Below, piece by piece: positions 11,276-25,664 of a DNA stretch of 64,000 nt. The stretch spans positions 1,984,001-2,048,000 of the forward strand of contig NZ_JAATNG010000001.1 of NCBI RefSeq assembly GCF_013184805.1, read 5' to 3'. Source of the stretch: Pseudoruegeria sp. HB172150. Its GTDB lineage: Bacteria; Pseudomonadota; Alphaproteobacteria; Rhodobacterales; Rhodobacteraceae. Below the pieces are notes generated by a model that saw only the letters and a list, made by a program, of their open reading frames with translations, made no database searches and was not told the DNA's origin. A program made the translations under genes and the position numbers. The first letter of the stretch is position 1, and each line of letters opens with the position of its first letter.

Positions 11276-12508
11276 ATGGCGACTGAGGCAAAGCCGGAAA
11301 GGCCGGGGTTTCAGGCTGTCGCCGAAAGGCGGTTCCGGCTGGCTGGCAAGTCGATCATCGAAAAGGGCCACCCCTATTTCGTTCCCGTCGACCGGCTGGA
11401 ACAGATGTATGCCGCGCGGCCCGATGGCTATGTCAGCCTGGCGCATTACGACTACCTCGGACTTGCCCGCCATCCGGAGGTGCTGGGTGCCGCGTCCGAC
11501 GCGCTGCACACCCACGGCGCGGGAGTCGGCGCCTCGCGTCTTGTCGGCGGCGAGCGCACCGCGCATCGCGCGCTGGAACGGAACCTCGCGAAATTCCTTG
11601 GCGTCGGCGACGTACTGACGCTGATCTCCGGCTACCTGACCAATCTGTCGCTGATCAACCACCTGCTGGGACCGCGCGACCTGGTGCTGATCGACTCGCT
11701 GGCCCACAACTCCATCGTCGTGGGCGCGCGGTCCGGCCGGTTCGAGTGCAAGACCTTCGCGCATAACGACCTCGACGATCTGGCGGCAAAGCTGACCGCG
11801 GCGCGGGGCGAATACCGTCACGTCCTGATCGTGGTCGAGGGTCTTTATTCGATGGATGGAGATATCCCCGACCTGCCCCGCCTGATCGAGATGAAGAAGC
11901 GCCACGACGCCTGGCTTCTGGTGGACGAGGCGCATTCCTTCGGTGTGCTGGGCCGCAACGGGCGGGGCGTTTGCGAGCATTTCGGCATCGATCCAGCGGA
12001 AATCGAACTGTCGGTCGGCACCCTGTCGAAAAGCTTCGTGTCCTCGGGCGGGTTCATCTGTGCCTCTGCCGACGTGATCGCATGGCTGCGTTTCACCCTG
12101 CCCGGCTTCGTCTATTCGGTCGGCCTGTCGCCCGCGACGGTGGCCAGCGCGAATGCCGCGCTGCACATCCTGCGGCGGGAACCGGATCGCGTGGAGCGGC
12201 TGAAGCGCAAGTCGCTTCTGTTCCGGGATGCCGCGCGCGATGCGGGACTCGATCCGGGCAAGGCAATCGGCGCTGCCGTCGTTCCGCTGTTCTTCGACAG
12301 CGCCGAAGAGACGATGATGGTCAGCCAGGCGCTGATGAACAGCGGTATCTACGCCCCGCCCATCGTGCAGATCGGCGTGCCGAAGGATCAGCCGCGGATC
12401 CGCTTCTTCTTTTCCGCCGAACATGACGAGGCCGATATACTGCGTGCCGTCGACGTGGTGGCGGGCGCGACGCGGGTCCGGTCGGTTCCCCGTCTCGCCA
12501 CGGTCTGA
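11276..12508 (+). CDS. Serine-palmitoyltransferase-like alpha-oxoamine synthase
   Basis: A cytoplasmic PLP enzyme of the alpha-oxoamine synthase family (SPT, KBL, BioF, HemA), 410 residues. The PLP-binding lysine is Lys252 in GTLSKSF; VDEAH (216-220) and the stacking-histidine region SLAHNS (141-146) are intact. The family condenses an acyl thioester with an amino acid. Serine palmitoyltransferase, giving 3-ketosphinganine, is the best reading because a 3-ketosphinganine-reductase-like SDR and lipid genes follow. 2-Amino-3-ketobutyrate ligase and AONS are the alternatives, but no tdh or bio genes are nearby. AAGGAGG five bases upstream fixes the ATG at 11276 rather than the GTG at 11273. It opens the locus. 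Confidence 0.82.
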   Translation: MATEAKPERPGFQAVAERRFRLAGKSIIEKGHPYFVPVDRLEQMYAARPDGYVSLAHYDYLGLARHPEVLGAASDALHTHGAGVGASRLVGGERTAHRALERNLAKFLGVGDVLTLISGYLTNLSLINHLLGPRDLVLIDSLAHNSIVVGARSGRFECKTFAHNDLDDLAAKLTAARGEYRHVLIVVEGLYSMDGDIPDLPRLIEMKKRHDAWLLVDEAHSFGVLGRNGRGVCEHFGIDPAEIELSVGTLSKSFVSSGGFICASADVIAWLRFTLPGFVYSVGLSPATVASANAALHILRREPDRVERLKRKSLLFRDAARDAGLDPGKAIGAAVVPLFFDSAEETMMVSQALMNSGIYAPPIVQIGVPKDQPRIRFFFSAEHDEADILRAVDVVAGATRVRSVPRLATV

Positions 12509-12572
12509 GCCGCTCTGCAAAACACCGCCGACGGCTCTGCAATCCATCTCGCCAGGTCTTCCGGGCCAGCGT

Positions 12573-13187
12573 ATGACTGCGATCATGAATCGCCGCGCCA
12601 TGATCCTGTCGAGCGGGGCCGCCGCCCTTCTGCCAGCCTTGCCGGCGGGGGCGGCGACATTGCGCAGCGTGAAGGTGGCGGAACAGCCCAGAGTCCCGCT
12701 GTTGCAGCCGGAGTGGCCGGTGCCGGACGAGCCGAACCAGATCTTTTACCTGCAGCGGTCGATCAACGCGAACACCATCGTCTTCACGGCGCGCTATGAC
12801 GGCGACGGGCAGCTGGTCTTTCCCGATGCGGCCGAGATCTACTGGCGCCGCTACGGGGATGCGGGGGAACGAATGCCGCTGAAACCGATCGAAAAGATCC
12901 TCGCCTTCGGGATGCAGATCCGCAAACGGCCCGAGCCAGATCAGTATACCGTGTGGCTAAACCCGCTTCCCCAGCTGTCCATGCTGCTGATGCAGACCGC
13001 CCCCGGTCAGGCGCAGTTGCTGGGCCGGATCGGCGGACAGACCGCGCGTGCCGTCTATGCCTATGCCGAGGTCGACGATACCGGGCTGATCCCGCGCGTG
13101 AACGGGCTGTCTCTGCACGGCGTGCTGCCGGACGGCGGCGCGATTTCGGAGTATTTCAGCGTCGCGGGCGGGGAATACCGGCCTTAA
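12573..13187 (+). CDS. Exported protein resembling DUF4833
   Basis: A 204-residue protein of unknown function. The N-terminus has two arginines and a hydrophobic stretch (NRRAMILSSGAAALLPALPAGAA), which reads as a secretion signal, possibly Tat, cleaved near residue 30. The body carries a pattern I associate with DUF4833: residues QIFYLQRSINANTIVF, then IYWRRYGDAG and a conserved YTVWLNPLP segment. The start could also be the ATG at 12585. It lies 64 bases after the SPT-like gene and 88 before inositol-phosphate synthase, in the same direction. It may be a periplasmic lipid-binding or lipid-modifying partner, but that is only inferred from position. Confidence 0.6.
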   Translation: MTAIMNRRAMILSSGAAALLPALPAGAATLRSVKVAEQPRVPLLQPEWPVPDEPNQIFYLQRSINANTIVFTARYDGDGQLVFPDAAEIYWRRYGDAGERMPLKPIEKILAFGMQIRKRPEPDQYTVWLNPLPQLSMLLMQTAPGQAQLLGRIGGQTARAVYAYAEVDDTGLIPRVNGLSLHGVLPDGGAISEYFSVAGGEYRP

Positions 13188-13275
13188 CCCGGAATTAGAC
13201 CGGAAGTTGCTGGCACCGCGCCGCGACCCGTGCCAAGAGATTGGCCCAGAGTAACGGGACTGTAACGGGCTATAC

Positions 13276-14388
13276 ATGGCGAAGACCCAAAGCGGTCGCA
13301 TCAGAACGGCTATAGCAGGGGTTGGGAACTGCGCGTCATCGCTGGTGCAGGCGGTTTCCTATTGCCGCGCCATGGGGGAAGAGGCGGTCGGCGTCAGCTT
13401 TCCGGTGCTGGGCGGATACCGACCGGAGGATGTCGAGATTGTCGCGGGCTTCGACATCGACGCGCGCAAGGTGAACCGGCCCATTGGCGAAGCGGTCCTC
13501 GCCACGCCCAACTGCACCGAGGTTTTCTGGGACAGGCTGGATGATCAGCCGGCGCAGGTACATCGCGGTCCCGATCTCGACGGCATCTCCGCCTATATGC
13601 GCAATCAACCGTCCGATTTGAGTTTCGCGCCGTCAGACGCCCCGGCCCTGACACGGGACGAGGTGGTTGCAAAGCTCAGGGCCGCGCAGGCCGGGGTTTT
13701 GATCCTGTTCCTGCCGGTCGGTTCCACTGCAGCGGTGGAATTCTACGCTGACTGCGCGCTCGCCGCAGGCTGCGCAGTGGTCAACGGCATCCCTGTCTTC
13801 CTCGCTTCGAAGCCTGCTTGGGCGCTGCGGTTCGAAGAGGCTGGCCTTCCGATCCTTGGCGACGATTTCAAAGCGCAGTTCGGCGCGACCGTCATCCATC
13901 GCGCGCTGGCGCATCTGGCGGATATGCGCGGCGTGAAGATCGACCGCACCTACCAGCTGAACGTCGGCGGCAATACCGACTTCCTCAACATGATGGACAT
14001 GGACCGGCTGGCAACGAAACGCGAGTCGAAGACAGAGGCCGTGCAGGCCGCGATGGACACCCGCCTCGCCGATGGCGACATCCGTATCGGGCCGTCGGAT
14101 TACGTGCCATGGCTGCAGGACCGCAAGGTCGCATATGTCCGCCTCGAAGGCCGGCTGCTGGGCGGCGCGCGCACCAGCGTCGAACTGCGGCTGGAGGTGG
14201 AAGACAGCCCGAATGCCGCTGCCATGGCCCTTACTGCGATCCGCATTGCCCGGATCGCGCGTGACCGGGGACTTGCAGGCGCGATCCCCGATGCCTGCGC
14301 CTTCCTGTTCAAGCATCCGCCGGTGCAGATGGACGACCCGGAGGCGCATGACCGGTTGCTCGCCTTCGCCGAAGGCGACACCGAATGA
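13276..14388 (+). CDS. ino1: Myo-inositol-1-phosphate synthase (MIPS)
   Basis: This cytoplasmic enzyme isomerises glucose-6-phosphate to inositol phosphate with bound NAD. The 370 residues begin with the nucleotide-binding motif AIAGVGNCASS and include the family block LNVGGNTDFLNM and the catalytic-region motif IGPSDYVPWL. Length and motifs fit the actinobacterial/archaeal short MIPS class rather than the 500-residue eukaryotic one. The stop overlaps the start of the following SDR gene (ATGA), so the inositol branch and the long-chain-base branch are translated together. This is the strongest evidence that the locus makes an inositol-containing lipid. Confidence 0.92.
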   Translation: MAKTQSGRIRTAIAGVGNCASSLVQAVSYCRAMGEEAVGVSFPVLGGYRPEDVEIVAGFDIDARKVNRPIGEAVLATPNCTEVFWDRLDDQPAQVHRGPDLDGISAYMRNQPSDLSFAPSDAPALTRDEVVAKLRAAQAGVLILFLPVGSTAAVEFYADCALAAGCAVVNGIPVFLASKPAWALRFEEAGLPILGDDFKAQFGATVIHRALAHLADMRGVKIDRTYQLNVGGNTDFLNMMDMDRLATKRESKTEAVQAAMDTRLADGDIRIGPSDYVPWLQDRKVAYVRLEGRLLGGARTSVELRLEVEDSPNAAAMALTAIRIARIARDRGLAGAIPDACAFLFKHPPVQMDDPEAHDRLLAFAEGDTE

Positions 14389-15173
14389 ACACCCCCGACA
14401 AACGCCCCGCCTTCATCACCGGCGGCTCCAGCGGTATCGGCCTGGCCCTTGCCCGGCAGCTCGCCGAGCGCGGCCACCCTGTCGCGATTTTCGCAAGACG
14501 TCCCAACAAGTTGCAGGCCGCAGCTGAAGCGATCGGTCCGAATGTCCGCGCCTATCCCTGCGACGTCGCCAACCGCGCCTCGGTCGAGGCCTCGGTGTCG
14601 CAGGCCATCGAGGAACTCGGCGCGCCCGGCTACGCCATCGCCAATGCCGGCGTGGCCGAACCGGGCGAGTTTCTGGAACAGCGCATCGACGCGCACGAAT
14701 ACCAGATGCAGATCAACTACTTCGGCGCGCTCTATTTCGCCCGTGCCTGCGCAGTGGCGATGCCCGAGGGCGCGAATCTGGTTTTCGTCGGCTCGGGCTC
14801 CGCCTTCTTCGGCATCTACGGTTATGGCGCCTACGCCCCGTCCAAATTCGCCGTGCGCGGTCTGGCGGAGGTGCTGCGGGTGGAACTGGCGCCCCGGGGC
14901 ATTTCGGTCACGCTCGCCTATCCTCCCGACACCGAAACGCCCATGCTGGAAACCGAGGAACGGCTGAAACCAGAAGCGACGAAGCTCATCACCGCAAGCG
15001 GCGGGTTGTGGTCGCCCGAAGACGTGGCCCGGGTCATCCTCAAACGCACGGACAAGGGACGTTTTGCCGTCACCCCCGGCTGGCAGATGACCGCGCTTCT
15101 CTGGCTGCATTCGCTGCTGGCGCCGGGGTTGCGACGCTGGCAGGCGGGGATCGTGCGGAAGACCCGCAAATGA
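14385..15173 (+). CDS. Short-chain dehydrogenase, 3-ketosphinganine (3-ketodihydrosphingosine) reductase-like
   Basis: A 262-residue classical SDR. It has the cofactor motif TGGSSGIG (12-19), NAG (87-89), the catalytic serines SGS around 137-139 and the Tyr150-x3-Lys154 pair. The segment after the active site (SKFAVRGLAEVLRVEL and then LAYPPDTETP) closely matches what I recall of the eukaryotic enzyme KDSR, including the PPDT-TP block that distinguishes KDSR from most SDRs. It would reduce the ketone made by the SPT-like enzyme to sphinganine. Known alphaproteobacterial ceramide loci use a different, epimerase-like reductase (CerR). It overlaps its neighbours on both sides (ATGA), in the middle of the operon. 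Confidence 0.8.
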   Translation: MNTPDKRPAFITGGSSGIGLALARQLAERGHPVAIFARRPNKLQAAAEAIGPNVRAYPCDVANRASVEASVSQAIEELGAPGYAIANAGVAEPGEFLEQRIDAHEYQMQINYFGALYFARACAVAMPEGANLVFVGSGSAFFGIYGYGAYAPSKFAVRGLAEVLRVELAPRGISVTLAYPPDTETPMLETEERLKPEATKLITASGGLWSPEDVARVILKRTDKGRFAVTPGWQMTALLWLHSLLAPGLRRWQAGIVRKTRK

Positions 15174-16060
15174 TGCCGGAGATCGCGCTGCTGGCACAGG
15201 CCTGCCTTGTATTGCTGGCGTTCGGCGCGCTGCTGGTGCTGGTACTGGCCGTCGTCCCGGCTACCGCGGCCACAGCGCGCGACGCGCTGCCGATCCTTCT
15301 GACCGAGGTCGTCATCGTCGGTGTCGCCGTCGGCGCGCTCTGGGCCGGTGGCTGGATATTGACCGCCGCCCTCCTTCTGCATGCCGCCCGAACCGGATAC
15401 GAGGCGGCCCGCGTGCGCCTTCCCGACGAAAGCCCATGGCCCGCCCTTGGCTTCGGCATCGGACTGGCCGCGCTCGGCTGGCTGGGCTCGGTATACCTTT
15501 CTGAAGTGTTTGCAGCCAATGTCGCGATGCTGGCCCTGTTCGCGCTGATCGGTGCACTGGTTCTTGCCTTCTCCGATCCGCGCACATCCCCTGCGGCCGC
15601 CTGGCTCGACATTGTGCTGTTTCCCGGCCTGCCTCTCATCGTCTTCACGGCCGCGGGCCTTCGCGGCGAGGCGGCACTGCTGCTGGCCGCGTTCCTGCTG
15701 GTCGAGACCTTCGACAGCTACGCCCTGCTCGGCGGCAAGCTTTTCGGCCGGCGCAAGGCGTTTCCGCAGATCAGCCCCGGCAAGACCATCGAGGGACTGA
15801 TCGCCGGGGCGGTGATGCTGGTTTTCACCGCCGTGCTGCTGGGCCCTGCCCTTGGCGTCCCGGTGACAATGGCCGCCGCTGCCGCGCTCGCTGCTGGCTC
15901 CTTCAGTGTCGCGGGCGACCTTTGCGCCTCGCGCCTCAAACGGATCGCGGGGGTCAAGGATTACCCGCGCATCATGCCATACCAGGGCGGGCTCCTTGAC
16001 ATCACCGACGCCTGGATTGCCACAACCATCGGGTTCCTTGCCCTCTCGGGCGCGTTCTGA
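15170..16060 (+). CDS. CdsA-family phosphatidate/phospholipid cytidylyltransferase, divergent
   Basis: An integral membrane protein of 296 residues with about eight hydrophobic segments. The C-terminal half carries the CDP-diglyceride synthase pattern: GGKLFGRRKAFPQISPGKTIEG, then SVAGDLCASRLKRIAGVKD and a final PYQGGLLDITD. In canonical CdsA the last motif reads HGG-x-LDR-x-D; here His is replaced by Gln and Arg by Ile. It probably makes a CDP-activated lipid from CTP, either CDP-diacylglycerol or an activated sphingoid lipid. The ATG at 15170 overlaps the preceding stop (ATGA), and a second ATG follows immediately. Confidence 0.8.
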   Translation: MMPEIALLAQACLVLLAFGALLVLVLAVVPATAATARDALPILLTEVVIVGVAVGALWAGGWILTAALLLHAARTGYEAARVRLPDESPWPALGFGIGLAALGWLGSVYLSEVFAANVAMLALFALIGALVLAFSDPRTSPAAAWLDIVLFPGLPLIVFTAAGLRGEAALLLAAFLLVETFDSYALLGGKLFGRRKAFPQISPGKTIEGLIAGAVMLVFTAVLLGPALGVPVTMAAAAALAAGSFSVAGDLCASRLKRIAGVKDYPRIMPYQGGLLDITDAWIATTIGFLALSGAF

Positions 16061-16146
16061 CCTCCCGTGCGCCGCGAAGCATTTGAACCGGCGCCCTCTT
16101 CACCGCATCATCGCGCCGTGATCCGGACACCAGAGACCCCGTTGCC

Positions 16147-17349
16147 ATGACGCGCAGCCCGATGATCCGGCTGCTGACCCGGCGCGCGTCGCGGGTTCTC
16201 CTCGGATTGATGGCTCTGATCGTCATGATCTTCATCACCGAGATATTCACCTCCGAACTCGAGGCGGTGATTTCAAGCGGCGGCCATGCGCTTGACCTGC
16301 TGCGCCTGCTGCTGCTGCGCACCCCCGAGGTCATCGACTTTGCCCTGCCGATCGTGCTGTTCCTCGGTCTCTACTTCGCTATCGACGGCGCCCGGACGGA
16401 TCGTGAACTGATCATCTGCGCCGCCGCCGGCGAGCGCTGGCAGAAGATTCCGCGCGTCGCGCTGACATTCGGTTTGCTGGCGATGCTGCTGTCGCTGCTC
16501 TTTTCCGGCCTGATCACGCCCGCCTCCAACCACCTGCTGCGGCTGACTTATTACGACCTGCAGTCACAGCGCATCCTGCAGGCGATCACTGACCCCGGCG
16601 ACCGCATCCATATCCAGGAGATCGAGGGCCGAACGATCATCGCCAGCCCGCCCGACTCACCGGACAGCGAACGCGGCTCTCTTTTCATTTACAGCGGCAC
16701 GGCGGATGGCGGGTGGCGGGTGGCGCGCGCGGATGACTGGGCGGTTGTCGGCCCGGATGACGACGGGGCCTATCAGGTCGCACTGAAGCGGTTCCGCGAG
16801 TATCGCGGCGACGCGGCCGAAGCGCCGCCGCCCACGGATATGCCAGACGACACACCGGGAAAGGCCACGCTCGATTTCGCGCAGGTTAATGTGCAGACTG
16901 TGGAGGTAGCGCTGCAGATCGGCGATATCGTCGAGGCTGTCGACCGCAGTCGCCATTTCAACGAACGCTTCCTGTTGCAGGCAGGCGGACCCGTGGACGG
17001 CGAACCGGTGGAAAACGCCGACGGTGCGATAGCGCCCGCCCCTACACCCACCTTCGGCGAAATCGTCGCCGCCGCGCTCCTTTGCCCGGTCGCCGCGCTG
17101 CTCGCGGTCGCGGGCGCAGCCCTTGCGGGCACGCGGCGCGGGCGCTTTCTCGGACTGCCACTTGGCCTGATCCTCGTTCTCGGCGGGGATGTCGGCGGTC
17201 GCGCCGTGCTGGGAGAGGCGGCGGCGCTCGGGTATCCGGCGTTCTGGGCAGGGGCCATGGCGCTGCTGGCGCTCGGCCTTGCCCCCGCCCTGATCTACGT
17301 CCGGCACCGCGCCGAGCGGATCGTCATCCCGCTCCGGGGCCGGGAATGA
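16147..17349 (+). CDS. LptF/LptG (YjgP/YjgQ) family permease, first of a pair
   Basis: A 400-residue inner-membrane protein with the LptF/LptG layout: three membrane segments in the first 130 residues, a periplasmic beta-jellyroll-like domain (about 140-290), then three more segments. LptF and LptG normally form the channel of the ABC exporter that lifts lipopolysaccharide to the outer membrane, with LptB ATPase and LptC, neither of which is encoded here. Canonical lptFG in this bacterial group usually lies in another locus, so this pair is probably a paralogue serving the lipid made by the surrounding genes. The end overlaps the next permease (ATGA). Confidence 0.85.
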   Translation: MTRSPMIRLLTRRASRVLLGLMALIVMIFITEIFTSELEAVISSGGHALDLLRLLLLRTPEVIDFALPIVLFLGLYFAIDGARTDRELIICAAAGERWQKIPRVALTFGLLAMLLSLLFSGLITPASNHLLRLTYYDLQSQRILQAITDPGDRIHIQEIEGRTIIASPPDSPDSERGSLFIYSGTADGGWRVARADDWAVVGPDDDGAYQVALKRFREYRGDAAEAPPPTDMPDDTPGKATLDFAQVNVQTVEVALQIGDIVEAVDRSRHFNERFLLQAGGPVDGEPVENADGAIAPAPTPTFGEIVAAALLCPVAALLAVAGAALAGTRRGRFLGLPLGLILVLGGDVGGRAVLGEAAALGYPAFWAGAMALLALGLAPALIYVRHRAERIVIPLRGRE

Positions 17350-18461
17350 GGGGCCGGCCCGCCGTTTTCGCGCTCGCCACCCGGCGTGCTGCGGCGGAGT
17401 ATCTGGCAGGCGTCCTGCTGATCCTCTTCATCCTGCTGATGATCGCCTACACCATCGACCTGGCCGGAAATTTCCCCAAGCTGCGCACCGCCGCACAGCG
17501 TCAGGGCGTGTTCCTGCCTACGCTCCTCTTCCCGTATCTCGGCCAGCGCGGGGTCGACATCGTCACCCGCATGTTGCCGATGGCCACATTCTTCGGCGTG
17601 TTCCTGATCGAGATCTTCCGCCGGATGCGGCTGGAAAGCGTAATGCTCGCCGCCGCCGGCGCGACGCCCGCGCGCGGCTTCGCGGCCCTGCTCTGGGTGG
17701 CGCTTGTCCTCGGCAGTGTCCACTGGGCGCTGGAAACGCGCTGGCGGCCGGCGGCGATCTGGGCGCAGGTGGAGACCGGCTTTGGCAGCTACGCACAGCG
17801 ATTTCCACGTACATGGCGCGACAACACCTGGCTGGTCGCGGGCGATACGGCGATCCGTGCCGACATCCTGCGCGACAGCGACGCCCAGATGCGTAACGCG
17901 GTCATCTTCCACGGCATTCGCGATGATCAGCTTCAAGCAATCGATGGGGCCGCGCGCATCTTGCCGACCGCCACGCCGCTGGTCTGGCAGATGGAGGGCG
18001 TCACGCGATGGGAGCCCGGCAACGCCGGGACCGGCGCCGCACCATTGTCCGCGCCAGACGGCACCCTCGACCTCGCTCTCATCCCCGAGCAGCTGCAGTA
18101 CCACGACGTCCCCGGCTTCTACCTGCCCAATGGGCCGCTTCACGCCATTGCCGCTATGCCGGACCCGCCCGAGAACATCGCCGACATCGAAACCGCGATC
18201 TGGCGCCGCCGCGTCGCATGGTTCCTGCCCGGAGTGGTCGCATTGCTGGCGGCGGGCCTTGCCCATCTTGGCTTCGAAGGCCGACGCGTGCTGATCCCGC
18301 ACCAGATCGCGTTTGCCGCGGCTGGCTACGGCTATACCGCCGCCATCAAGACTTTCTGGAGCCTTGGCGAGCTTGGCACGCTGTCCGCGCCCGTCGCCCT
18401 GCTGACACCGCTGCTGGCCGGGCTGGCGGTCGCGGTTCTGCTGATCAGGCGGGCGACGTGA
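17346..18461 (+). CDS. LptF/LptG (YjgP/YjgQ) family permease, second of a pair
   Basis: A 371-residue partner to the preceding permease, with the same topology: N-terminal membrane segments, the IFRRMRLESVMLAAAGATP coupling-helix region (key residues RLESVMLAAAG at about 80-95) that would contact an ATPase, a periplasmic domain and a C-terminal hydrophobic bundle. The ATGA overlap couples its translation to the first permease, as expected for a heterodimeric channel. Its last 17 bases overlap the convergent nucleotidyltransferase gene. Confidence 0.85.
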   Translation: MRGRPAVFALATRRAAAEYLAGVLLILFILLMIAYTIDLAGNFPKLRTAAQRQGVFLPTLLFPYLGQRGVDIVTRMLPMATFFGVFLIEIFRRMRLESVMLAAAGATPARGFAALLWVALVLGSVHWALETRWRPAAIWAQVETGFGSYAQRFPRTWRDNTWLVAGDTAIRADILRDSDAQMRNAVIFHGIRDDQLQAIDGAARILPTATPLVWQMEGVTRWEPGNAGTGAAPLSAPDGTLDLALIPEQLQYHDVPGFYLPNGPLHAIAAMPDPPENIADIETAIWRRRVAWFLPGVVALLAAGLAHLGFEGRRVLIPHQIAFAAAGYGYTAAIKTFWSLGELGTLSAPVALLTPLLAGLAVAVLLIRRAT

Positions 18462-19194
18462 TCTCTTTCCGCGCCTCGACAATCCAAGGATAGACAACGC
18501 GTTCGGCCCGCTCCAGCATCGACAGGTTATCAACCTCGGCCCAAGGCAGATCGTCGATGCGGAATACCTCGACCGGCAGTTCGCGTCCGAGTTCGACGAT
18601 GCCCGCTTCGTAATGTTCGTCCGGCACACGGGCGAGCACTCTCGGGCCGACCTCCCGCAAAGCCTCGACCGCTTCGGCGCTCAGCCGGGTGATTCCGACC
18701 AGCTCGCCATAGGGTGGTTCCGGCCGCACAGACAGGTCCTTCGAAATCGCGGCAAGGTGCTTCCCCGGCCCGGTCCAGACATAAACCTCGTCCCCCGCCC
18801 GGGTCGGACCCGACGTCAGCAGCCGCGTCTCCCCGTCCAGCGCAGCCGCAAGCGCCTGCGGCGCATAGACAAGGTCCGATTCCAGCACGAGGCACGGGCC
18901 CGACAGGTCCTTCAGCCCTGTCAGCAGCGACAACAGGCTGCCCGTCACCGCATAGGCTGGGTTGTGCACCAGTTCCACATCTGCATCTGACCCGTGTGCC
19001 GACTGAAAATGATCCGCGAGATGGCCGGTGACGATCCGGATCTTCGGTACCCCGAAAGCCCTAAGGCTGGCCAGAGATTGCGAGATCAGGGTCTCTCCGC
19101 CCATCGGCAGCATGCCTTTGGGAACCATCTTTCCAAGCGGCCCCATCCGAATGCCCATGCCCGCCGCAACGATGACGGCCGTGATCCCGGTCAT
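18445..19194 (-). CDS. NTP-transferase, inositol-1-phosphate (or polyol/amino-alcohol phosphate) cytidylyltransferase-like
   Basis: A 249-residue cytoplasmic nucleotidyltransferase of the sugar-1-phosphate type. The signature AAGMGIRMGPLGKMVPK lies at residues 10-26 and the metal-binding Asp107 in LESDLVY. A second metal site is in WAEVDNLSMLERAE near the C-terminus, a layout shared by inositol-phosphate and phosphocholine cytidylyltransferases. With inositol-phosphate synthase and two CDP-alcohol transferases next to it, CTP plus inositol-1-phosphate giving CDP-inositol is the most likely reaction. It runs against its neighbours: convergent with the LptG-like gene (17-base overlap) and divergent from the next CDP-alcohol transferase. 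I chose the ATG at 19194 because the nucleotide motif begins a few residues later. Confidence 0.75.
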   Translation of the reverse strand: MTGITAVIVAAGMGIRMGPLGKMVPKGMLPMGGETLISQSLASLRAFGVPKIRIVTGHLADHFQSAHGSDADVELVHNPAYAVTGSLLSLLTGLKDLSGPCLVLESDLVYAPQALAAALDGETRLLTSGPTRAGDEVYVWTGPGKHLAAISKDLSVRPEPPYGELVGITRLSAEAVEALREVGPRVLARVPDEHYEAGIVELGRELPVEVFRIDDLPWAEVDNLSMLERAERVVYPWIVEARKEITSPA

Positions 19195-19291
19195 GCCTGC
19201 CCTTTCCTCGTCCCGGTCCGCGCGCGAACCGGGCGTGCCTTGACCCGAACGGTATGCTAGGGGGGGCACGGCATCAAGACGGCAGGCAGCG

Positions 19292-19984
19292 ATGAACGTG
19301 CAGGAAAATGAAAAGGTTGGCATCGGCCGGATCGCCGCCGACCTGCGCGGCAAGCGCATCGCCGACGAATTGCGCAGCGCGTGGTCGCTGACCCTGCTTT
19401 ACCGGGTACCCAGCCTGCCCTTCGTCTGGAGTTTCGCACGCCTCGGCATCGGGCCGATGCCCGTCACCGGGGTGGGCCTTTTCATCGCCCTTTCTCTGCC
19501 GTTCCTCGCCTGGGGCGTGCCGCTCTCCGCCGCCCCCTGGGCGGTGGTCGTCGCGGCCGTCCTGTTCCAGATCCTCGACTGCGCCGACGGCACCCTCGCC
19601 CGCGTGACCGGCCGCACGTCGCCCGCCGGGGCAGAGTTCGACCTGTTCGTCGACATGGTGCAATGGGCCTGCCTCTACATCGCCATCGGCCTCCTCGCTG
19701 ACCGCACCCTCGGCACCGGCTTTGGCTGGACCGCACTGGCCCTTGTCGCGGCCTGGACGCGCCTTTTCGCCCGCATGCTGCGAGAGCGGCTCGGCGGACT
19801 GGACGACGCAGACCCGGCGCCGCTGCGCCTCGCCGACCTGCCCATAGTCTTCGTCTCCGGCCTGTCCGGCCTGTTTCCGTTCCTGGCGCTCACGGGCGTG
19901 TGGCTAGGCGTGGCGGCAACCTTGCTCCTGCTCTACAGCCTGCTCGACATCGGCGACGCGTTGCTACCGCATCTCCGCCCGTGA
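19292..19984 (+). CDS. CDP-alcohol phosphatidyltransferase (first of two)
   Basis: A 230-residue membrane enzyme with a complete catalytic motif: Asp96-x2-Asp99-Gly100-x2-Ala103-Arg104-x8-Gly113-x3-Asp117-x3-Asp121. The family transfers a substituted phosphate from a CDP-linked alcohol to a hydroxyl acceptor. An amphipathic N-terminal extension of about 40 residues precedes the membrane core. Next to the cytidylyltransferase, it could take CDP-inositol as donor and a lipid hydroxyl as acceptor, as the archaeal di-inositol-phosphate synthases do with soluble inositol phosphate; CDP-lipid as donor is the alternative. The stop overlaps the start of the glycosyltransferase (GTGA). Confidence 0.85.
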   Translation: MNVQENEKVGIGRIAADLRGKRIADELRSAWSLTLLYRVPSLPFVWSFARLGIGPMPVTGVGLFIALSLPFLAWGVPLSAAPWAVVVAAVLFQILDCADGTLARVTGRTSPAGAEFDLFVDMVQWACLYIAIGLLADRTLGTGFGWTALALVAAWTRLFARMLRERLGGLDDADPAPLRLADLPIVFVSGLSGLFPFLALTGVWLGVAATLLLLYSLLDIGDALLPHLRP

Positions 19985-21114
19985 AAATCGTCCAGCTCTG
20001 CCCTTACGCGATGGATCGCCCGGGCGGCGTGCAGCGGCACGTCCGTGACCTCTCCGCATGGCTGGAGAGCGAGGGGCACAGAACCCGCATCATCGCCCCG
20101 CCCTCCCCGGGCGGCCAGACCGGCGCCGACGGCAAAATCACCAGCATCGGCCACGCCCGGAAGCTGGCCCTTCATGGCACCGAATTCGAGGTCAGCTGGG
20201 CCAGCCGCGCCGCCCTGCGCGCCCTTGCCCGCGAACTGAAGCTCTGGGGCGCGGAGCTTGTGCACATGCACACGCCGTGGACACCGTTTCTTACGGCCCA
20301 GATGTTCCGCGCCCTCGCCCTGCCCGCAGTTACCACGGTCCACGCCACGCTTCCCGAATCCGGCCTGAATTCAATCGCCGACCGCTTCATCCGACGGAGC
20401 GCGCGGCGCCTCCTGCCGCAATCGCGCGCCGTCGTGATCCCGTCCGGGGCGCCGCTGCCGATGCTGCGCCGCCTGCTGCCCGGCCTCGAACCGCAGATCC
20501 TGCCGCCTGCCATCGACCTGTCTCCCTGGGTCACGGCGGGCCGGTCGCCGGTGCGGCGCAAGGGGCTTTCGCTGGTTTTCCTCGGCCGGCTGGAGCCGCG
20601 CAAGGGCGTCGACGTGCTGCTCGACGCCTGGCCGCGCATTGCCGCGGCGCTGCCCGACGCGCATCTCACCATCGCTGGCGACGGACCACTGCGCCCGCAG
20701 GTCGACGCCGCCCGTTCCGACAGACTGCACCTTGTGCGCCGCCCGGACGACGCCGCAGCACAGGTGCTGCTGGCCGCCGCCGATTTCTGCCTCGCCCCGG
20801 CGCCATATGGCGAAAGCTTCGGTCTTGTGCTCACAGAGGCGATGGCCGCCGGCAGCCTGCCCGTCGCCGCCGCCAATCCCGGCTTCGCCTCCGTCCTCAC
20901 CGGCCCCGGCGCGGAACTGCTGGTTCCGCCCGGAGACGCCGGTGCCCTGGCGCGGAAGATCATCACCCTAGCCGCAGCCCCGGAGACCTGTGACAGCCTC
21001 CACCGCTGGTCCCGGCACGAGGCCGCCCGACTCGACATAGCGCATCAGGGCCCGCGGTTTCTCCGGCTCTACGAATCCGTTCTCGCGGACCATCCGCCCG
21101 CTTCTTCCTGCTGA
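19981..21114 (+). CDS. GT4 glycosyltransferase, PimA-like (phosphatidylinositol mannosyltransferase type)
   Basis: A 377-residue GT-B fold enzyme of family GT4. The N-terminus (CPYAMDRPGGVQRHVRDL) matches the PimA signature CPYS-D-PGGVQ-HV of mycobacterial phosphatidylinositol mannosyltransferase unusually well. The C-terminal half has the nucleotide-sugar motif around FLGRLEPRKGVDVLL and the donor-binding block PYGESFGLVLTEAMAAG. I chose the GTG at 19981, which overlaps the preceding stop, because the PimA-like motif begins at once; the longer frame upstream lies inside the previous gene. It would add a sugar, perhaps mannose, to the inositol or other head group of the lipid. The sugar donor is not known. 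Confidence 0.82.
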   Translation: MKIVQLCPYAMDRPGGVQRHVRDLSAWLESEGHRTRIIAPPSPGGQTGADGKITSIGHARKLALHGTEFEVSWASRAALRALARELKLWGAELVHMHTPWTPFLTAQMFRALALPAVTTVHATLPESGLNSIADRFIRRSARRLLPQSRAVVIPSGAPLPMLRRLLPGLEPQILPPAIDLSPWVTAGRSPVRRKGLSLVFLGRLEPRKGVDVLLDAWPRIAAALPDAHLTIAGDGPLRPQVDAARSDRLHLVRRPDDAAAQVLLAAADFCLAPAPYGESFGLVLTEAMAAGSLPVAAANPGFASVLTGPGAELLVPPGDAGALARKIITLAAAPETCDSLHRWSRHEAARLDIAHQGPRFLRLYESVLADHPPASSC

Positions 21115-21135
21115 AAATATCCCCGCCGGAGGCTC
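21101..21135 (+). repeat. 35-bp dispersed repeat, copy 1
   Basis: This stretch begins in the last codons of the glycosyltransferase gene and runs past its stop. It matches the reverse complement of 44845-44879 at 31 of 35 positions, including the identical 3' half CCCGCCGGAGGCTC. It looks like a small intergenic repeat placed at gene ends. Confidence 0.65.
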
Positions 21136-21271
21136 CCGCACGCGCCGCCTGCACCAGAGCCGGGCAAAAGCGCAGACGTCGAAAACAGCCACCCGCGAAG
21201 GCCATGCGATGTTGCCAATCCCCGGCCCGCGTGGCACGGCTGACCCGACCGCCACAGGGCAAGGGACACGC

Positions 21272-22828
21272 GTGAGCACGGCCGATCTGATCCTCGCCGC
21301 CGATTTCGGCACATCGGGCGTCAAGATCGGGGCTGTCGGGCCCGACCTCGTGCCGGTGGCCACAACGGTCGAGCCCTATCCGCTGCACCTGCCCGCGCCG
21401 TCTCATGCCGAGCAGATCCCCGAAGACTGGTGGAACGCGCTCGCGCGCGGCATCGCGCGGCTGAAGGCAGAGATCCCCGATCTCGCCGCGCGTTGCGGTG
21501 CGGTGGTCTTCACGGCACAGCTCTGCGCGGTGATCTGTGCCAAATCCGACGGTACGGTGCTGCGCCCGGCGATGGTCTGGCTCGACAAGCGCGCGGCGCC
21601 GCTGATCCGCAAGCGCATGGGCGGGCTTGTGACACTGGCGGGGTACAACCTGCCCTTCCTTCTGCGCTCGATCCGGATCGCCAATGGCGCGCCGTCGCAT
21701 AATGGCATGGACCCGCCGGGCAAGATGCTCTGGCTTATGCAGCATGAGCCGGACGTTTTTTCCGGCGCCGACCATATCCTCGACGTGAAGGACTGGCTGC
21801 TTCTGCGCGCGACCGGGACGGTCACCACCACTGCAGACAGCGCCAACCTGACCTGGCTGATGGACACACGGCGGGGGCGCGAAGGCTGGTCGCCGAAACT
21901 GGCGCATCACCTTGGCCTGACGCTCGACAAGCTGCCGAAGATCGTCGACGGCACCGAGGTTGTCGGCGGGCTGACCCGGGAGGCCGCTGAGGGCCTGGGA
22001 CTGCGCGCCGACATTCCCGTCGTCGCAGGCGGCGGCGACGTGACGGCGACCGCCATCGGCTCCGGCGCGGTGGCGGATGGCGCGCTGCATCTGTGCCTCT
22101 CGACCTCCTCCTGGGTGTCGGGCTTCTACGACCGCCGGGTGCTGAACATCTTCGCTTCCTATGCCACGGTCACGTCGGCTATCGGGCATCGGCCGCTGCT
22201 GATCGCGACGCAGGAATCCGCGGGCTCGGCCCTCGCCTGGCTCGCGCGGATGCAGGGTGCGGGCACGGACGATGCGGCTCTGTCCGCCTATTACGACAGG
22301 ATCGGCAACTACGCCGCGGACGATCCGTTCTTCCTGCCCTGGCTCGCAGGGGAACGCTCGCCGATGGACGAGGAACGCCTGCGCGGCGCCTTCTACGGGC
22401 TGAACCTGCGGCACGGGCCAGAGGCACTGAAGCGCGCGGCGCTGGAGGGCGTGGCCTGCAACATCCGCTGGGCCTACGATCTGGTGGCAAAGGAGCGCGG
22501 CACGCGCACCGACGGGCCGATCCCCGCGGTCGGCGGTGCGGCGGCTAACCCGCAACTGGCGCAGGCATTGGCCGACGTGCTGAACCGGCCCATCTCTGTC
22601 GGCGAAACCGCCCTTGCCGGGATGCGCGGCGCGGCGGCCATCGCGGCGCCAACACTGGGCTGGGCCGGGGACGTGTGGCAGGCTGCGGGCAGGTTGCGTG
22701 ACGGGCCGGCGCGGAACTTCGTGCCGGATCCGGGGCGCGTGGCGATGCTGCAGGACCGCTATGCCGAGTTAGCATTGCTGCGCAAGTCGCTGGCAAAGCT
22801 CTACAAACGCCGTAAGGGCAAGGCATGA
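21272..22828 (+). CDS. FGGY-family carbohydrate (polyol/ketose) kinase, xylulokinase-like
   Basis: A 518-residue ASKHA-fold kinase. The N-terminal phosphate motif AADFGTSGVKIG begins at about residue 9; the FGGY C-terminal signature is recognisable around PFFLPWLAGERSP and the adenosine region AVGGAAANPQLAQ. Such enzymes phosphorylate xylulose, ribulose, glycerol or other polyols. GTG at 21272, five bases after AAGGGA, fits better than the longer frame. Xylulokinase is the default label, but no xylose genes are nearby. Its stop overlaps the second CDP-alcohol transferase (ATGA), so a role in phosphorylating a head-group polyol or inositol is plausible but untested. Confidence 0.75.
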   Translation: MSTADLILAADFGTSGVKIGAVGPDLVPVATTVEPYPLHLPAPSHAEQIPEDWWNALARGIARLKAEIPDLAARCGAVVFTAQLCAVICAKSDGTVLRPAMVWLDKRAAPLIRKRMGGLVTLAGYNLPFLLRSIRIANGAPSHNGMDPPGKMLWLMQHEPDVFSGADHILDVKDWLLLRATGTVTTTADSANLTWLMDTRRGREGWSPKLAHHLGLTLDKLPKIVDGTEVVGGLTREAAEGLGLRADIPVVAGGGDVTATAIGSGAVADGALHLCLSTSSWVSGFYDRRVLNIFASYATVTSAIGHRPLLIATQESAGSALAWLARMQGAGTDDAALSAYYDRIGNYAADDPFFLPWLAGERSPMDEERLRGAFYGLNLRHGPEALKRAALEGVACNIRWAYDLVAKERGTRTDGPIPAVGGAAANPQLAQALADVLNRPISVGETALAGMRGAAAIAAPTLGWAGDVWQAAGRLRDGPARNFVPDPGRVAMLQDRYAELALLRKSLAKLYKRRKGKA

Positions 22829-23436
22829 TCGACGGTCTGATGAAGGACGTGATCGACCCGCTCTGGGAAGCAATGGCGCGTCCGCTGGCCCGTGCCGGGC
22901 TTACACCGAACCAGGTCACCGCGCTGGGGCTGGCGCTGATCATCCTCGCCTCGCTGGCCTATCTCTGGCACCGCTCGCCCTGGATCTACGGCCTGACGCT
23001 GGCATTTGCCTTCGTCTTCGATGCGCTGGATGGCGCCGTGGCCCGGCAGACCGGGCTTTCCAGCAAGGTTGGCGGTTACTTCGACGCAATGGTCGACCGG
23101 TATCAGGAACTGATCGTCCTGCTCGCCATCGGCTGGGTCACAGGCCACTGGGCACTGGCGCTGCTGGCGTTTTCCGGTGCTATGCTGACCAGTTACGCCA
23201 AGGCCCGCACCGCCATCGAGACGCCGGTCAGCAACACCGACTGGCCGGACCTGTTCGAGCGGATGGAGCGGATCATCTACCTCTGCTTTCTGCTTCTGCT
23301 CGCCGGGCTACTGCCGTGGAACTGGGTTCTTCCCGCCGGGCTGACCGTTTACGCGATCCTCTGCCACGTCACAGCGCTGCAACGCATCCGGCGTGCTTTT
23401 CTGCTTCTGAAAGAGGCGGATAGAAACGAAAGCTAA
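22825..23436 (+). CDS. CDP-alcohol phosphatidyltransferase (second of two)
   Basis: A 203-residue polytopic membrane enzyme with the intact family motif: Asp66-x2-Asp69-Gly70-x2-Ala73-Arg74-x8-Gly83-x3-Asp87-x3-Asp91. The first 30 residues (NPLARAGLTPNQVT-like, here LARAGLTPNQVT) are the typical lead-in of phosphatidylinositol-phosphate and phosphatidylglycerol-phosphate synthases. It is coupled to the FGGY kinase by an ATGA overlap, and its last 4 bases overlap the convergent regulator gene. It is sequence-distinct from the other copy at 19292-19984, so the two probably use different donors or acceptors, for example inositol phosphate with CDP-lipid against CDP-inositol with a lipid hydroxyl. 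Confidence 0.88.
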   Translation: MIDGLMKDVIDPLWEAMARPLARAGLTPNQVTALGLALIILASLAYLWHRSPWIYGLTLAFAFVFDALDGAVARQTGLSSKVGGYFDAMVDRYQELIVLLAIGWVTGHWALALLAFSGAMLTSYAKARTAIETPVSNTDWPDLFERMERIIYLCFLLLLAGLLPWNWVLPAGLTVYAILCHVTALQRIRRAFLLLKEADRNES

Positions 23437-25664
23437 GCTACTGCCAGCCGCTGCCGCAGCGCCTGCGCGGTGCGGATATCGGCGGAAAAGGACGCGCCCC
23501 GATCCACCGCTTCCAGCCCCCGGTCCAGCCTCAGCGCCGCGTCGCGAGCGCGGCCTGTCTGCCGCAGATAAGCCGCGAACCCGACCGAGGCCCGCAGCTC
23601 GTGCAGCCCCGATCCGGTTCGCCGCGCCGCCTCCACCGCCGACAGGAACGCCGCCTCCGCCTGCCCCGCCCGCGTATCGCGGTTGCGGATCAACAATTGC
23701 GCCTGCAGCCGCAGCAATTCCGGCTCATAGTGCAGCACACCGGTCGCCGACGCAGCCGCCAGCCCCTCGTCCACCTGCAGCAGCGCGTCATCGCCACCTG
23801 CGCTTAGCGCCGCATCGGCCAGCCATGCGTGGATCATGGGCACAGCTAGTGTACCGCCGCCACGGCGATAGTCGCCGAGCGCCCCTGCCAACTGCCGCGC
23901 CGCGTCCGGCTCGCCCAGCCTGTCCCGGGCGCGGGCGACGATCGCGCGCGCCAATGCCTGCCGCAGAGGCTGACCCTGCGCCTGTCCCGCCGCCGTCTGT
24001 GCCAGCGCCAGGCTGACCCGCGCCGCGCCTAGCTCGCCCTGCACCAGCGCGGCGAAAAGCCGGCACCACAGGGCGGTGTCCGCGCAGCCCAGCCCCTGCG
24101 CCTCGCTCAGCACGCGGCGCACCGTCTCGCCCGATGCGGCGGTGCGGCCGCGCAGCACCCGCGTCCAGGCCAGCAGGCTGCGCGCAACCATGCCAGGGTC
24201 CAGCCCCGGCGGTCCGTCCGGCAGGTACAGGTCCTCGACCGGCAACAGCGCCTCTTCCGCCGCCGCCAGCCGCCCGCGAAAGAACCGCGAGGCACCGACC
24301 ATAACGTCACCGATGGCCCGGTCACGTCCGCCGCAGGAACGCACCTGCTCTCCCAGGGCCAGGACCAGCGCCAGATCGCCCCGCGTCAGGGCCGCGCGCC
24401 AGCTTTGCCAGAGGACGGGCAACTGCGGCGGTCTCGTTACTATCGCCGGCCTCTCCTCAGCCGTTCGCAGGATGTAAAGCCCGGCGCGTTCCTCCGCCGC
24501 CGTCAGATACCAGTCCACCGGGCTCAGACCGCCGAATGATGCATCGGCCAGCGCCTCGCCCGTCTGTGCCAGCGCAACCGTCCGTGCGGCGGAGAGCAGT
24601 GGCAACCCCATCGCCCCGTCGCCGCTGCGCACCACAAGCCCGCGTGCCACCGCCGCGGCGGGCAATACACTGATCGGCCGTGCCCCTTGCACCGCCACCG
24701 GCTCAGCCGTGAGGATCAGCGCGACAAGCCCGGCCCGTTCCGCCTGTTCCTCGGCCTCGCCTCCGTCGAACACGGCGACCACCCGGTCGCCCGGCCCAGG
24801 CAAAACCGTACCATCGTATCCCTCGACCGTGCGCCGCGCGAAATCTGCAAACGCGGCTTGCGCGTGCAGCACGACACCGGGATCAATCCCTGGATCGAAC
24901 GCCGAAAGCTCCGGAAGGCAAGCGATGAGCACCGCCGCCTCATGCGGATCGCCGGGGATGCCGGTCGCATCGGGAAGACAGACTTCGACCGGTTCGAGCG
25001 CGGCGATATTCTCGAACGCGGTCTCACGTGGTATCGCACATTTCGGCGTAGCCTTTCGCGCCCGGGTCCAGACGCGATGCGCCTGTTCCGATCCCGGATC
25101 CACGGCAAGCAAGGCTGCGACCGCCCCCATGGCGGCCCGGGTGTTTCCCGTAGTCTGCTCGCTTTCCAATAGCTGTTTCAGCGCCCCGACCGCAATCGCC
25201 TGCAGGCGATTGCATTCGGATGATTGCCAGGCGCTGAACGACTGTGAAGGCAAGGTCAGGCCCTGCAAGAACGGCCCCCGGTAGATCTGCGCGACCTTGC
25301 TCAGGTCGTGGTCCTCTCCGGAAGCGACACAGACCTCCAGCGCGCGGCAGTCGGCAATTGCCGGGTCGGCGACAAAGGTAACCACTGTGTTGCTGGCGCG
25401 GATCGCATCCAGCCCGGCTTCCCGAAGCGCCTTGCGCAGAACGGCCAGCTCCTGCCGCAGGCTTGCGCGGGCCTGTCCCGGCGAGCGTTTCGGCCAGAAC
25501 ATTTCTGCCAGTTCCTGTCGCGGAACGGGCCGGCCCGCCGATTGCACCAAGTAGGCCAGCAGCCCCCAGCATCGCCGCGACGTCATCCGCACGGGGCAGC
25601 CGGTTTCGCCGGACAGTTCGAGATCTCCCAGCAACCGGATCTGCATGCGGTTCCGCTCTGACAT
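23433..25664 (-). CDS. SARP/BTAD-type transcriptional activator with long C-terminal sensor/TPR region
   Basis: A 743-residue regulator. Residues 5-100 form a winged-helix OmpR-like DNA-binding domain (IRLLGDLELSGETG, then WGLLAYLVQSAGRPVPRQELAEMFWP), followed by a bacterial transcriptional activation domain at about 100-200. A central region (about 230-430) may be a ligand or cyclase-like domain, and an alanine-rich, helical TPR-like C-terminus follows. This SARP architecture is best known from Streptomyces antibiotic clusters but occurs scattered in alphaproteobacteria. It converges on the last lipid-locus gene (4-base overlap). Regulation of that locus is possible but not shown by any site I can see. 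Confidence 0.78.
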   Translation of the reverse strand: MSERNRMQIRLLGDLELSGETGCPVRMTSRRCWGLLAYLVQSAGRPVPRQELAEMFWPKRSPGQARASLRQELAVLRKALREAGLDAIRASNTVVTFVADPAIADCRALEVCVASGEDHDLSKVAQIYRGPFLQGLTLPSQSFSAWQSSECNRLQAIAVGALKQLLESEQTTGNTRAAMGAVAALLAVDPGSEQAHRVWTRARKATPKCAIPRETAFENIAALEPVEVCLPDATGIPGDPHEAAVLIACLPELSAFDPGIDPGVVLHAQAAFADFARRTVEGYDGTVLPGPGDRVVAVFDGGEAEEQAERAGLVALILTAEPVAVQGARPISVLPAAAVARGLVVRSGDGAMGLPLLSAARTVALAQTGEALADASFGGLSPVDWYLTAAEERAGLYILRTAEERPAIVTRPPQLPVLWQSWRAALTRGDLALVLALGEQVRSCGGRDRAIGDVMVGASRFFRGRLAAAEEALLPVEDLYLPDGPPGLDPGMVARSLLAWTRVLRGRTAASGETVRRVLSEAQGLGCADTALWCRLFAALVQGELGAARVSLALAQTAAGQAQGQPLRQALARAIVARARDRLGEPDAARQLAGALGDYRRGGGTLAVPMIHAWLADAALSAGGDDALLQVDEGLAAASATGVLHYEPELLRLQAQLLIRNRDTRAGQAEAAFLSAVEAARRTGSGLHELRASVGFAAYLRQTGRARDAALRLDRGLEAVDRGASFSADIRTAQALRQRLAVA

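Follow-up and report, generated by a model that had tools for sequence, protein, structure and literature searches.

A conserved gene cluster of Rhodobacterales and Stappia with the predicted enzymes for a proposed exported, inositol-containing sphingoid lipid

What is made by a gene cluster in which an alpha-oxoamine synthase (AOS) stands beside enzymes of inositol lipid synthesis and a putative lipid exporter? The question is raised by positions 11276-23436 of a 64,000-nucleotide stretch of DNA from Pseudoruegeria sp. HB172150 (hereafter the window; G000:C1:1984001-2048000), whose genome (G000) comprises 5.06 Mb in 21 contigs. An earlier note on this DNA had described the locus as a complete head-group and export pathway for an inositol-containing sphingolipid. 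The analysis presented here favors, on balance, a dedicated surface-lipid pathway in which a sphingoid-type base would be joined to glycosylated inositol phosphate and exported by a second LptF/LptG pair. Twelve intact genes occupy the locus, eleven on the plus strand and one (ntpT) on the minus strand, in the following order:

11276..12508, plus strand: AOS of an RkpG/SgaB-like branch, predicted serine palmitoyltransferase (SPT) activity (PF00155, 2.5e-44)
12573..13187, plus strand: DUF4833 protein, apparently secreted, predicted all-beta fold (PF16117, 8.1e-19)
13276..14388, plus strand: inositol-3-phosphate synthase (MIPS; PF01658, 6.9e-32; TIGR03450, 362.5 bits against a cut-off of 638)
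14385..15173, plus strand: short-chain dehydrogenase (SDR), presumed 3-ketosphinganine reductase (PF00106, 1.1e-39; TGGSSGIG, YAPSK)
15173..16060, plus strand: CdsA-like cytidylyltransferase with an altered signature (PF01148, 3.6e-35)
16147..17349, plus strand: LptF-like permease, divergent second copy (PF03739, 1.2e-18, N-terminal half matched)
17346..18461, plus strand: LptG-like permease, divergent second copy (PF03739, 2.2e-21)
18445..19194, minus strand: PntC-like nucleotidyltransferase (ntpT), accessory; candidate aminoethylphosphonate (AEP) or phosphoethanolamine cytidylyltransferase (PF12804, 4.4e-16)
19292..19984, plus strand: CDP-alcohol phosphotransferase A (CDP-AP A), accessory, weakly choline/ethanolamine phosphotransferase-like (PF01066, 6.9e-7)
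19981..21114, plus strand: GT4 glycosyltransferase, PimA-like (PimA matches in the PDB, 1.3e-35)
21209..22828, plus strand: FGGY carbohydrate kinase, start uncertain (PF00370, 6.3e-33; PF02782, 3.6e-22)
22825..23436, plus strand: CDP-alcohol phosphotransferase B (CDP-AP B), resembling phosphatidylinositol phosphate (PIP) synthase (PF01066, 6.2e-14)

Relatives of this locus were selected through similarity to a single one of its genes, either MIPS, AOS or CDP-AP B, and nineteen of them were tabulated. A ten-gene core, consisting of the genes for AOS, DUF4833, MIPS, SDR, the CdsA-like enzyme, LptF, LptG, the PimA-like GT4, FGGY and CDP-AP B, was present in full in 17 of the 19. The other two were readable only in part: L051 lies on a short contig, and the 20 kb fetched for G465 held FGGY and CDP-AP B only. 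Relatives selected on one gene thus also carry the rest, and the co-occurrence of the core exceeds chance. The check on joint conservation proposed in the earlier note is answered in its favor, while its impression of a set unfamiliar in a roseobacter needs qualification, as the set is not unique to the source genome and ntpT and CDP-AP A are only accessory.

All families named in that note were found as intact open frames at their place, although it had missed the DUF4833 gene and left the minus-strand orientation of ntpT unstated. The motifs checked are intact, including GTLSK and DEAH in the AOS and D..DG..AR........G...D...D in both CDP-APs. The AOS start was set at the ATG at 11276, with an in-frame GTG at 11273. 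The frequent ATGA and GTGA overlaps that had been noticed account for four of the eleven gene junctions, three being of the ATGA type (mips/sdr, lptF/lptG and fggy/cdpB) and one of the GTGA type (cdpA/gt4). In addition, sdr and cdsA overlap by 1 base, and the ends of lptG and ntpT overlap tail-to-tail by 17 bases. The GC content of the locus is 67.1%, that of the two flanks 62.8 and 63.0%.

The sphingoid-base side of the proposed pathway depends on the AOS. Its closest solved relative in the PDB is the Sphingobacterium SPT (225.6 bits), followed by KBL (197.2 bits) and BioF (194.2 bits). In phylogenetic trees, it groups with AOSs from polyketide synthase (PKS) and capsule loci (RkpG/SgaB-like), away from canonical SPTs, KBL and ALAS; this branch received a support of 100/100 both in a 22-row tree (12 rows) and in another tree (19 rows). 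SPTs together with the AOS branch were split from KBL, ALAS and BioF with a support of 98/96, E. coli BioF being a long branch in that tree only and contained neither in the tree from which eight rows were dropped nor in the one of 22 rows. Ten of the 13 canonical SPT loci over the cut-off were used in the trees (L065 and L069 were not tried); L068 was dropped for want of an open frame at the inferred place, and L054 was omitted owing to a contig end. Consequently, the synthase does not fall with KBL or ALAS, the placement that the earlier note had named as damaging, and stands apart from E. coli BioF in the one tree that included it. The designation as an SPT-type enzyme holds insofar as the protein is SPT-like; it does not hold at the level of the curated families, as all NCBIfam SPT cut-offs are missed and the branch is a separate one of PKS and capsule loci.

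The branch includes a PKS-adjacent Pseudomonas AOS from a plasmid with capsule genes, as well as PKS-adjacent AOSs of S. meliloti and Shinella, each of which is followed by an SDR gene. PfSgaB, an AOS encoded beside a PKS in P. fluorescens, was shown to act as an SPT that uses L-serine almost exclusively (PMC12134224); its own sequence is in no tree, and it is linked to the branch via the PKS-adjacent arrangement. The window SDR shares 35% identity with the S. meliloti SDR, 36% with that of Shinella and 28% with that of Acidisoma. The latter is encoded on a plasmid of Acidisoma sp. PAMC 29798 (L172 13127-15912), where genes for an SDR, an AOS (55% identical to that of the window) and a member of the sterol desaturase family occur together with capsule and lipoteichoic acid (LTA) synthase genes. 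G000 itself encodes a second AOS with 43.7% identity to that of the window (L036 2638-16876, corresponding to G000:C1:1584637-1598875). A 2331-aa reducing PKS is encoded before this gene; after it come a 1077-aa protein that matches no Pfam family and two genes of capsule synthesis, an arrangement of the SgaAB/Rkp-type PKS-AOS locus.

On the head-group side, CDP-AP B carries SYAKAR and ER.ER motifs (SYxKAR, ERxER) that are invariant in 13 of 13 sequences; in the alignment, they correspond to SYIKAR and ERPER in a PIP synthase structure, and the QR at the C-terminus is aligned as well. In PIP synthase, these residues (Ser, Lys and two Arg) were shown to bind inositol phosphate, the use of which is impaired when they are mutated (PMC4634129). 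Scoring below the NCBIfam cut-offs (NF045883, 88.6 against 170; NF040950, 127.1 against 180), CDP-AP B nevertheless looks like a PIP synthase, which would take a CDP-lipid and inositol phosphate as substrates. Judged by its similarity over the full length, the GT4 enzyme is a PimA-like glycosyltransferase: only two PDB sequences were matched at E<=1e-12, and both are PimA (1.3e-35 over residues 1-367 of 377). G000 encodes three PF01148 proteins, the CdsA-like protein of the cluster among them. All 18 cluster members have QGG in place of the HGG of the CdsA signature and, instead of the Arg that follows the next Asp, Ile (13 cases), Ser (3) or Thr (2), DR becoming DI in the window; the other two CdsA-like proteins of G000 retain HGG and DR. 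This altered signature hints at another lipid phosphate as the substrate.

Two further core genes are harder to place. The FGGY kinase has a xylulose kinase as its best PDB match (171.8 bits), and it was considered as a xylulokinase; the similarity is an overall one, but L-C-A is found where XylB has M-H-G, a stretch that we take to be sugar-binding, and the assignment was dropped. Within the 20 kb fetched for G465 (L168 5091-7228), FGGY and CDP-AP B occur as a pair with the other core genes absent, which hints that the two may act together. The DUF4833 gene was found in 18 of the 19 relatives, the nineteenth being read only in part. Its product starts with a signal-like stretch (by eye), and its AlphaFold2 model is nearly all beta (mean pLDDT 76.7). 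No Foldseek match was obtained at E<=0.001, sequence comparison gave no informative match, and no paper on the family was found.

Export is suggested by the LptF/LptG pair. G000 contains four PF03739 genes, namely a pair at C1:2251404-2253592 and the divergent pair of the cluster. An LptF/LptG pair is also part of the Caulobacter sphingolipid locus (PMC11324152) and of the E. coli BL21 sphingolipid locus. Among four canonical-SPT slices read, the pair was found in three, one by Pfam and two by similarity, and was not recognized in the fourth (L109).

For ntpT, the earlier note had proposed an inositol-phosphate cytidylyltransferase, an assignment that must be replaced. The family profile matches the Treponema PntC-AEPT structure (6pd1) best, with 192.1 bits over nearly the whole length, compared with 62 bits for LicC and 34.5 bits for inositol-phosphate cytidylyltransferase (2xme). 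Two glutamates, E105 and E196, are invariant in 12 of 12 sequences and are placed by alignment on Glu104 and Glu196 of Tde-PntC, which lie near the AEP amine (PMC6697681). The protein is therefore best regarded as PntC-like, a candidate AEP or phosphoethanolamine cytidylyltransferase. As a result, CDP-inositol becomes the weaker reading of the activated head group, and it was set aside also in view of G101 and G268, which lack ntpT. CDP-AP A is weakly similar to choline/ethanolamine phosphotransferases (8ero, E 5.4e-5), and all 13 relatives that encode it also carry ntpT.

Accessory genes vary over the 19 relatives: ntpT occurs in 15, a Stealth gene in 14 (plus one cut at a slice end), CDP-AP A in 13, a desaturase in nine, AEP transaminase in five, and phosphoenolpyruvate (PEP) mutase and phosphonopyruvate decarboxylase in four each. 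The core of G101 and G268 comes with none of them. The window locus has ntpT and CDP-AP A and lacks the Stealth, desaturase and AEP genes; no close desaturase homologue was found elsewhere in G000. A role of the desaturase as a sphingolipid Delta4-desaturase was considered and rejected, as FA_desaturase matches are clear but Lipid_DES was matched in only one of three proteins (E 0.034) and no solved relative was found; a likeness to DES1 is presumed. AEP synthesis genes adjoin the AOS gene in four relatives. In L028 and L052, the AEP enzymes passed NCBIfam cut-offs, as did the L031 transaminase. PEP mutase is linked to the cluster in G002, G004, G179 and G180, with 38% matches elsewhere in the genomes of G003, G175 and G176. 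In G000, no PEP mutase match was obtained at E<=1e-10, so that AEP cannot be taken as the sure ntpT substrate there; the alternatives would be uptake of AEP or the use of phosphoethanolamine. L028 (17186-18829) encodes a fusion of PEP mutase with a MobA-like nucleotidyltransferase. The fused nucleotidyltransferase domains of L028 and L053 lack the two PntC glutamates, which indicates that their genomes carry two different nucleotidyltransferases.

Taken together, these predictions can be arranged into a pathway. The AOS would condense serine with an acyl thioester and the SDR would reduce the 3-keto group, while MIPS would convert glucose 6-phosphate to inositol 3-phosphate. The variant CdsA may turn a lipid phosphate, perhaps a sphingoid phosphate rather than phosphatidate, into a CDP-lipid, which CDP-AP B would join to inositol phosphate. 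The PimA-like GT4 would then add a sugar in a phosphatidylinositol (PI) mannoside-like reaction, and the second LptF/LptG pair would extract the lipid towards the outer membrane. Where the accessory genes are present, ntpT and CDP-AP A may add an AEP or ethanolamine-phosphate group. In its most specific form, the proposal is a bacterial glycosylinositol-phospho-sphingolipid made via a CDP-activated sphingoid lipid (variant CdsA), a PIP synthase-type transferase, PimA-like glycosylation and AEP or ethanolamine phosphate decoration, without N-acylation by bacterial ceramide synthase (bCerS), as a convergent counterpart of trypanosome glycoinositolphospholipids; this full combination can be put forward only tentatively. 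What remains of the interpretation in the earlier note is a conserved locus that unites genes for inositol lipids with an SPT-like AOS, an SDR and an additional LptF/LptG pair, whereas CDP-inositol activation and the completeness of the pathway are given up.

Several observations weigh against a sphingoid-based inositol lipid. The AOS scores below the NCBIfam cut-offs for SPT (NF047599, 272.3 against 500 bits; NF047600, 278.1 against 640; NF047603, 196.2 against 670) and below the curated BioF, KBL and ALAS cut-offs too, its highest score being that for bioF (323.5, cut-off 426.45). In two unrooted trees, a midpoint root, used for drawing only, puts canonical SPTs nearer to KBL than to the AOS branch. 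Among solved chains, the SDR is closest to alcohol dehydrogenases (85 bits). Canonical proteobacterial SPT loci are described as having an acyl carrier protein gene ahead of spt and an acyl-ACP synthetase gene (PMC9386255). In the window, a DSL motif is missing from every frame of the 463-base gap before the AOS gene, and the six open reading frames of at least 40 aa in this gap do not resemble an acyl carrier protein; the synthetase gene (aasR) is absent from the locus, no genome-wide search having been made. PF04339 was considered as a possible ceramide-synthase marker and rejected: it occurred in 15 of 16 genomes, including five family members without the cluster MIPS, and was missing from one canonical-SPT genome. 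Since this family was uninformative, the query used was YghO, which in E. coli B corresponds to CC_1154, the N-acyltransferase gene of Caulobacter (PMC9386255). It gave clear matches in all four canonical-SPT genomes; of the 13 cluster genomes, 11 gave no match and the other two, both Stappia, gave marginal matches of 74 residues. Either another N-acyltransferase acts on the base, or the base is left unacylated, as in the MYb115 sphinganines. Neither Pfam nor NCBIfam matches in the locus pointed to a lipid kinase or a PIP phosphatase, and with no convincing YghO homologue in the 13 cluster genomes the word "complete" in the earlier note was too strong. The FGGY kinase, present in every fully read locus, and the DUF4833 protein have no step assigned to them in the scheme. 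Finally, PIP synthase normally uses CDP-diacylglycerol, and the inositol lipid could therefore be a glycerolipid.

This last point leads to a reading in which the locus makes two separate lipids with a common LptF/LptG exporter, namely a PI-mannoside-like glycosylated phosphatidylinositol on diacylglycerol and a free or N-acylated sphingoid base. It is in keeping with the action of PIP synthase and PimA, the enzymes matched by CDP-AP B and GT4, on glycerolipids, and with the lack of a recognized sphingoid-base kinase among the locus genes. However, G000 encodes two further CdsA-like proteins, and that of the cluster departs from the signature at two residues in every one of the 18 members; moreover, AOS, SDR and inositol genes form one block in the fully read loci, the exceptions being G003 (AOS at a separate place) and G001 (AOS on a different contig). 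Two separate lipids appear rather unlikely. The genomic company of the AOS branch outside the cluster, i.e., capsule, LTA-synthase or PKS genes, would instead suit an AOS-SDR product that serves as the lipid anchor of a phosphoglycan or capsule-like polymer (Rkp-type), with the other genes building the glycan and not a membrane-lipid head group. The Stealth transferase of 14 relatives, partial in one more, would fit the same picture, but its gene is absent from the window, G101 and G268, no polymerase or capsule ABC exporter was found among the Pfam matches of the window locus, and the dedicated LptF/LptG pair and the PIP synthase- and PimA-like enzymes argue against it, which makes a polymer anchor improbable. 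Still less probable is an AOS substrate other than serine, for instance glycine or alanine, which would yield a base that is not strictly sphingoid. Its position outside the curated SPT families and its top NCBIfam score for bioF would allow for this, whereas it groups with PKS-type AOSs and not with KBL, ALAS or BioF, and the PKS-type PfSgaB, a different sequence, is serine-specific (PMC12134224). The single sphingoid-based inositol lipid is accordingly retained as the preferred reading.

Parts of this scheme are known from other systems. The synthesis of mycobacterial PI mannosides starts with MIPS, PIP synthase and PimA, three enzyme types that are gathered here in one locus; the present cluster adds AOS, SDR and LptF/LptG, and its proteins do not reach the NCBIfam cut-offs for MIPS and PIP synthase. 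Inositol phosphoryl dihydroceramide is known as a real bacterial product. The BT_1522-1526 genes of Bacteroides likewise place MIPS beside a PIP synthase-type CDP-AP, and MIPS-linked inositol-lipid clusters were described in Bacteroidetes (Heaver et al., PMC9246714). The alternative Bacteroides cluster combines a nucleotidyltransferase with a CDP-AP, the present nucleotidyltransferase being PntC-like. A HAD hydrolase, a PgpA-like phosphatase, a BT_1522-type synthase and a BT_1525 homologue were not recognized among the Pfam matches of the present locus, which was not searched with the BT sequences. The text on the Bacteroides cluster names no SPT (PMC9246714), whereas the present locus links AOS, SDR, LptF/LptG, a PimA-like glycosyltransferase and FGGY. 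The same source reports a Novosphingobium acidiphilum sphingolipid that fragments like inositol phosphoryl dihydroceramide in a species without those Bacteroidetes genes.

The Caulobacter and E. coli BL21 loci (SPT, AcpR, AasR, CerR, CerS and LptF/LptG; PMC11324152, PMC9386255) share with the present one an AOS, a reductase and an LptF/LptG pair. They differ in that the present AOS is of another branch, an SDR takes the place of the epimerase-type CerR, inositol head-group genes are added, AcpR and AasR are absent from the window locus, and no convincing bCerS was found in the 13 cluster genomes. The PKS-derived sphinganines of Pseudomonas SgaAB (PMC12134224) and the PKS-AOS-SDR loci of S. meliloti and Shinella are comparable in their PKS-adjacent AOS branch and SDR partner; in the present locus, a PKS is lacking, and genes for inositol, glycosyl transfer and export take its place. 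In chemical terms, the AEP-decorated form comes closest to a eukaryotic product: the glycoinositolphospholipids of Trypanosoma cruzi consist of inositol-phosphoceramide, hexoses and AEP or ethanolamine phosphate (PMC7618162). This likeness is one of predicted chemistry. Among the open-licence PMC papers found by searching, no title or abstract opening describes the cluster, and the gene combination looks undescribed, built from parts of known bacterial lipid pathways.

MIPS matches were found in eight of 101 genomes: the source genome, four same-genus relatives at 82%, two distant ones at 46-50% and one partial match at 29%. The same-genus relatives are Psychromarinibacter sediminicola (G001, L046), two Maritimibacter metagenome-assembled genomes (G002, L045; G004, L044) and an uncultured Rhodobacteraceae bacterium (G003, L043); NCBI taxonomy places Psychromarinibacter in Rhodobacterales, Paracoccaceae. 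The cluster genes of G003 lie in three places and those of G001 on two contigs. CDP-AP B homologues (E<=1e-40) occur in 15 of 390 genomes of the order and in six of 139 genera; ten of these 15 loci were read. A contig scan with the AOS alignment yielded 14 loci. One of them, in Sediminibacterium (L055, AOS identity 32%), is without any further cluster gene over the 21 kb it spans and was left untabulated; in Shimia, a contig (L054) ends inside the AOS gene, and the rest of the cluster is on another contig (L106). Plasmid records gave no CDP-AP B match, and 12 of them contain an AOS at 42-55% identity. The AOSs of Stappia (Hyphomicrobiales) adjoin those of Rhodobacterales in the tree (support 93/85), which suggests transfer. 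Two neighboring genes may be mentioned in addition. In Maritimibacter sp. ih11 (L044 17313-18365), a phosphodiesterase-like gene lies between ntpT and lptG, the sole case among the 19. A BTAD/SARP-like regulator is encoded on the minus strand at window positions 23433-25664, with a tail-to-tail overlap of 4 bases with CDP-AP B; homologues (44-45%) were found only in G001 and G003 among the tabulated relatives, within the stretches read.

If the preferred reading is correct, sphingoid-based inositol lipids would extend to marine Rhodobacterales and Stappia, and their route would combine parts known separately, namely an AOS of the PKS type that lacks the PKS, enzymes as in PI mannoside synthesis and an LptF/LptG pair of its own. 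The altered CdsA raises the possibility of a CDP-sphingolipid intermediate; this would represent distinct chemistry. The AEP genes beside the AOS gene offer a genetic handle on phosphonolipid synthesis, and the ten-gene core can be used as a clear marker in surveys.

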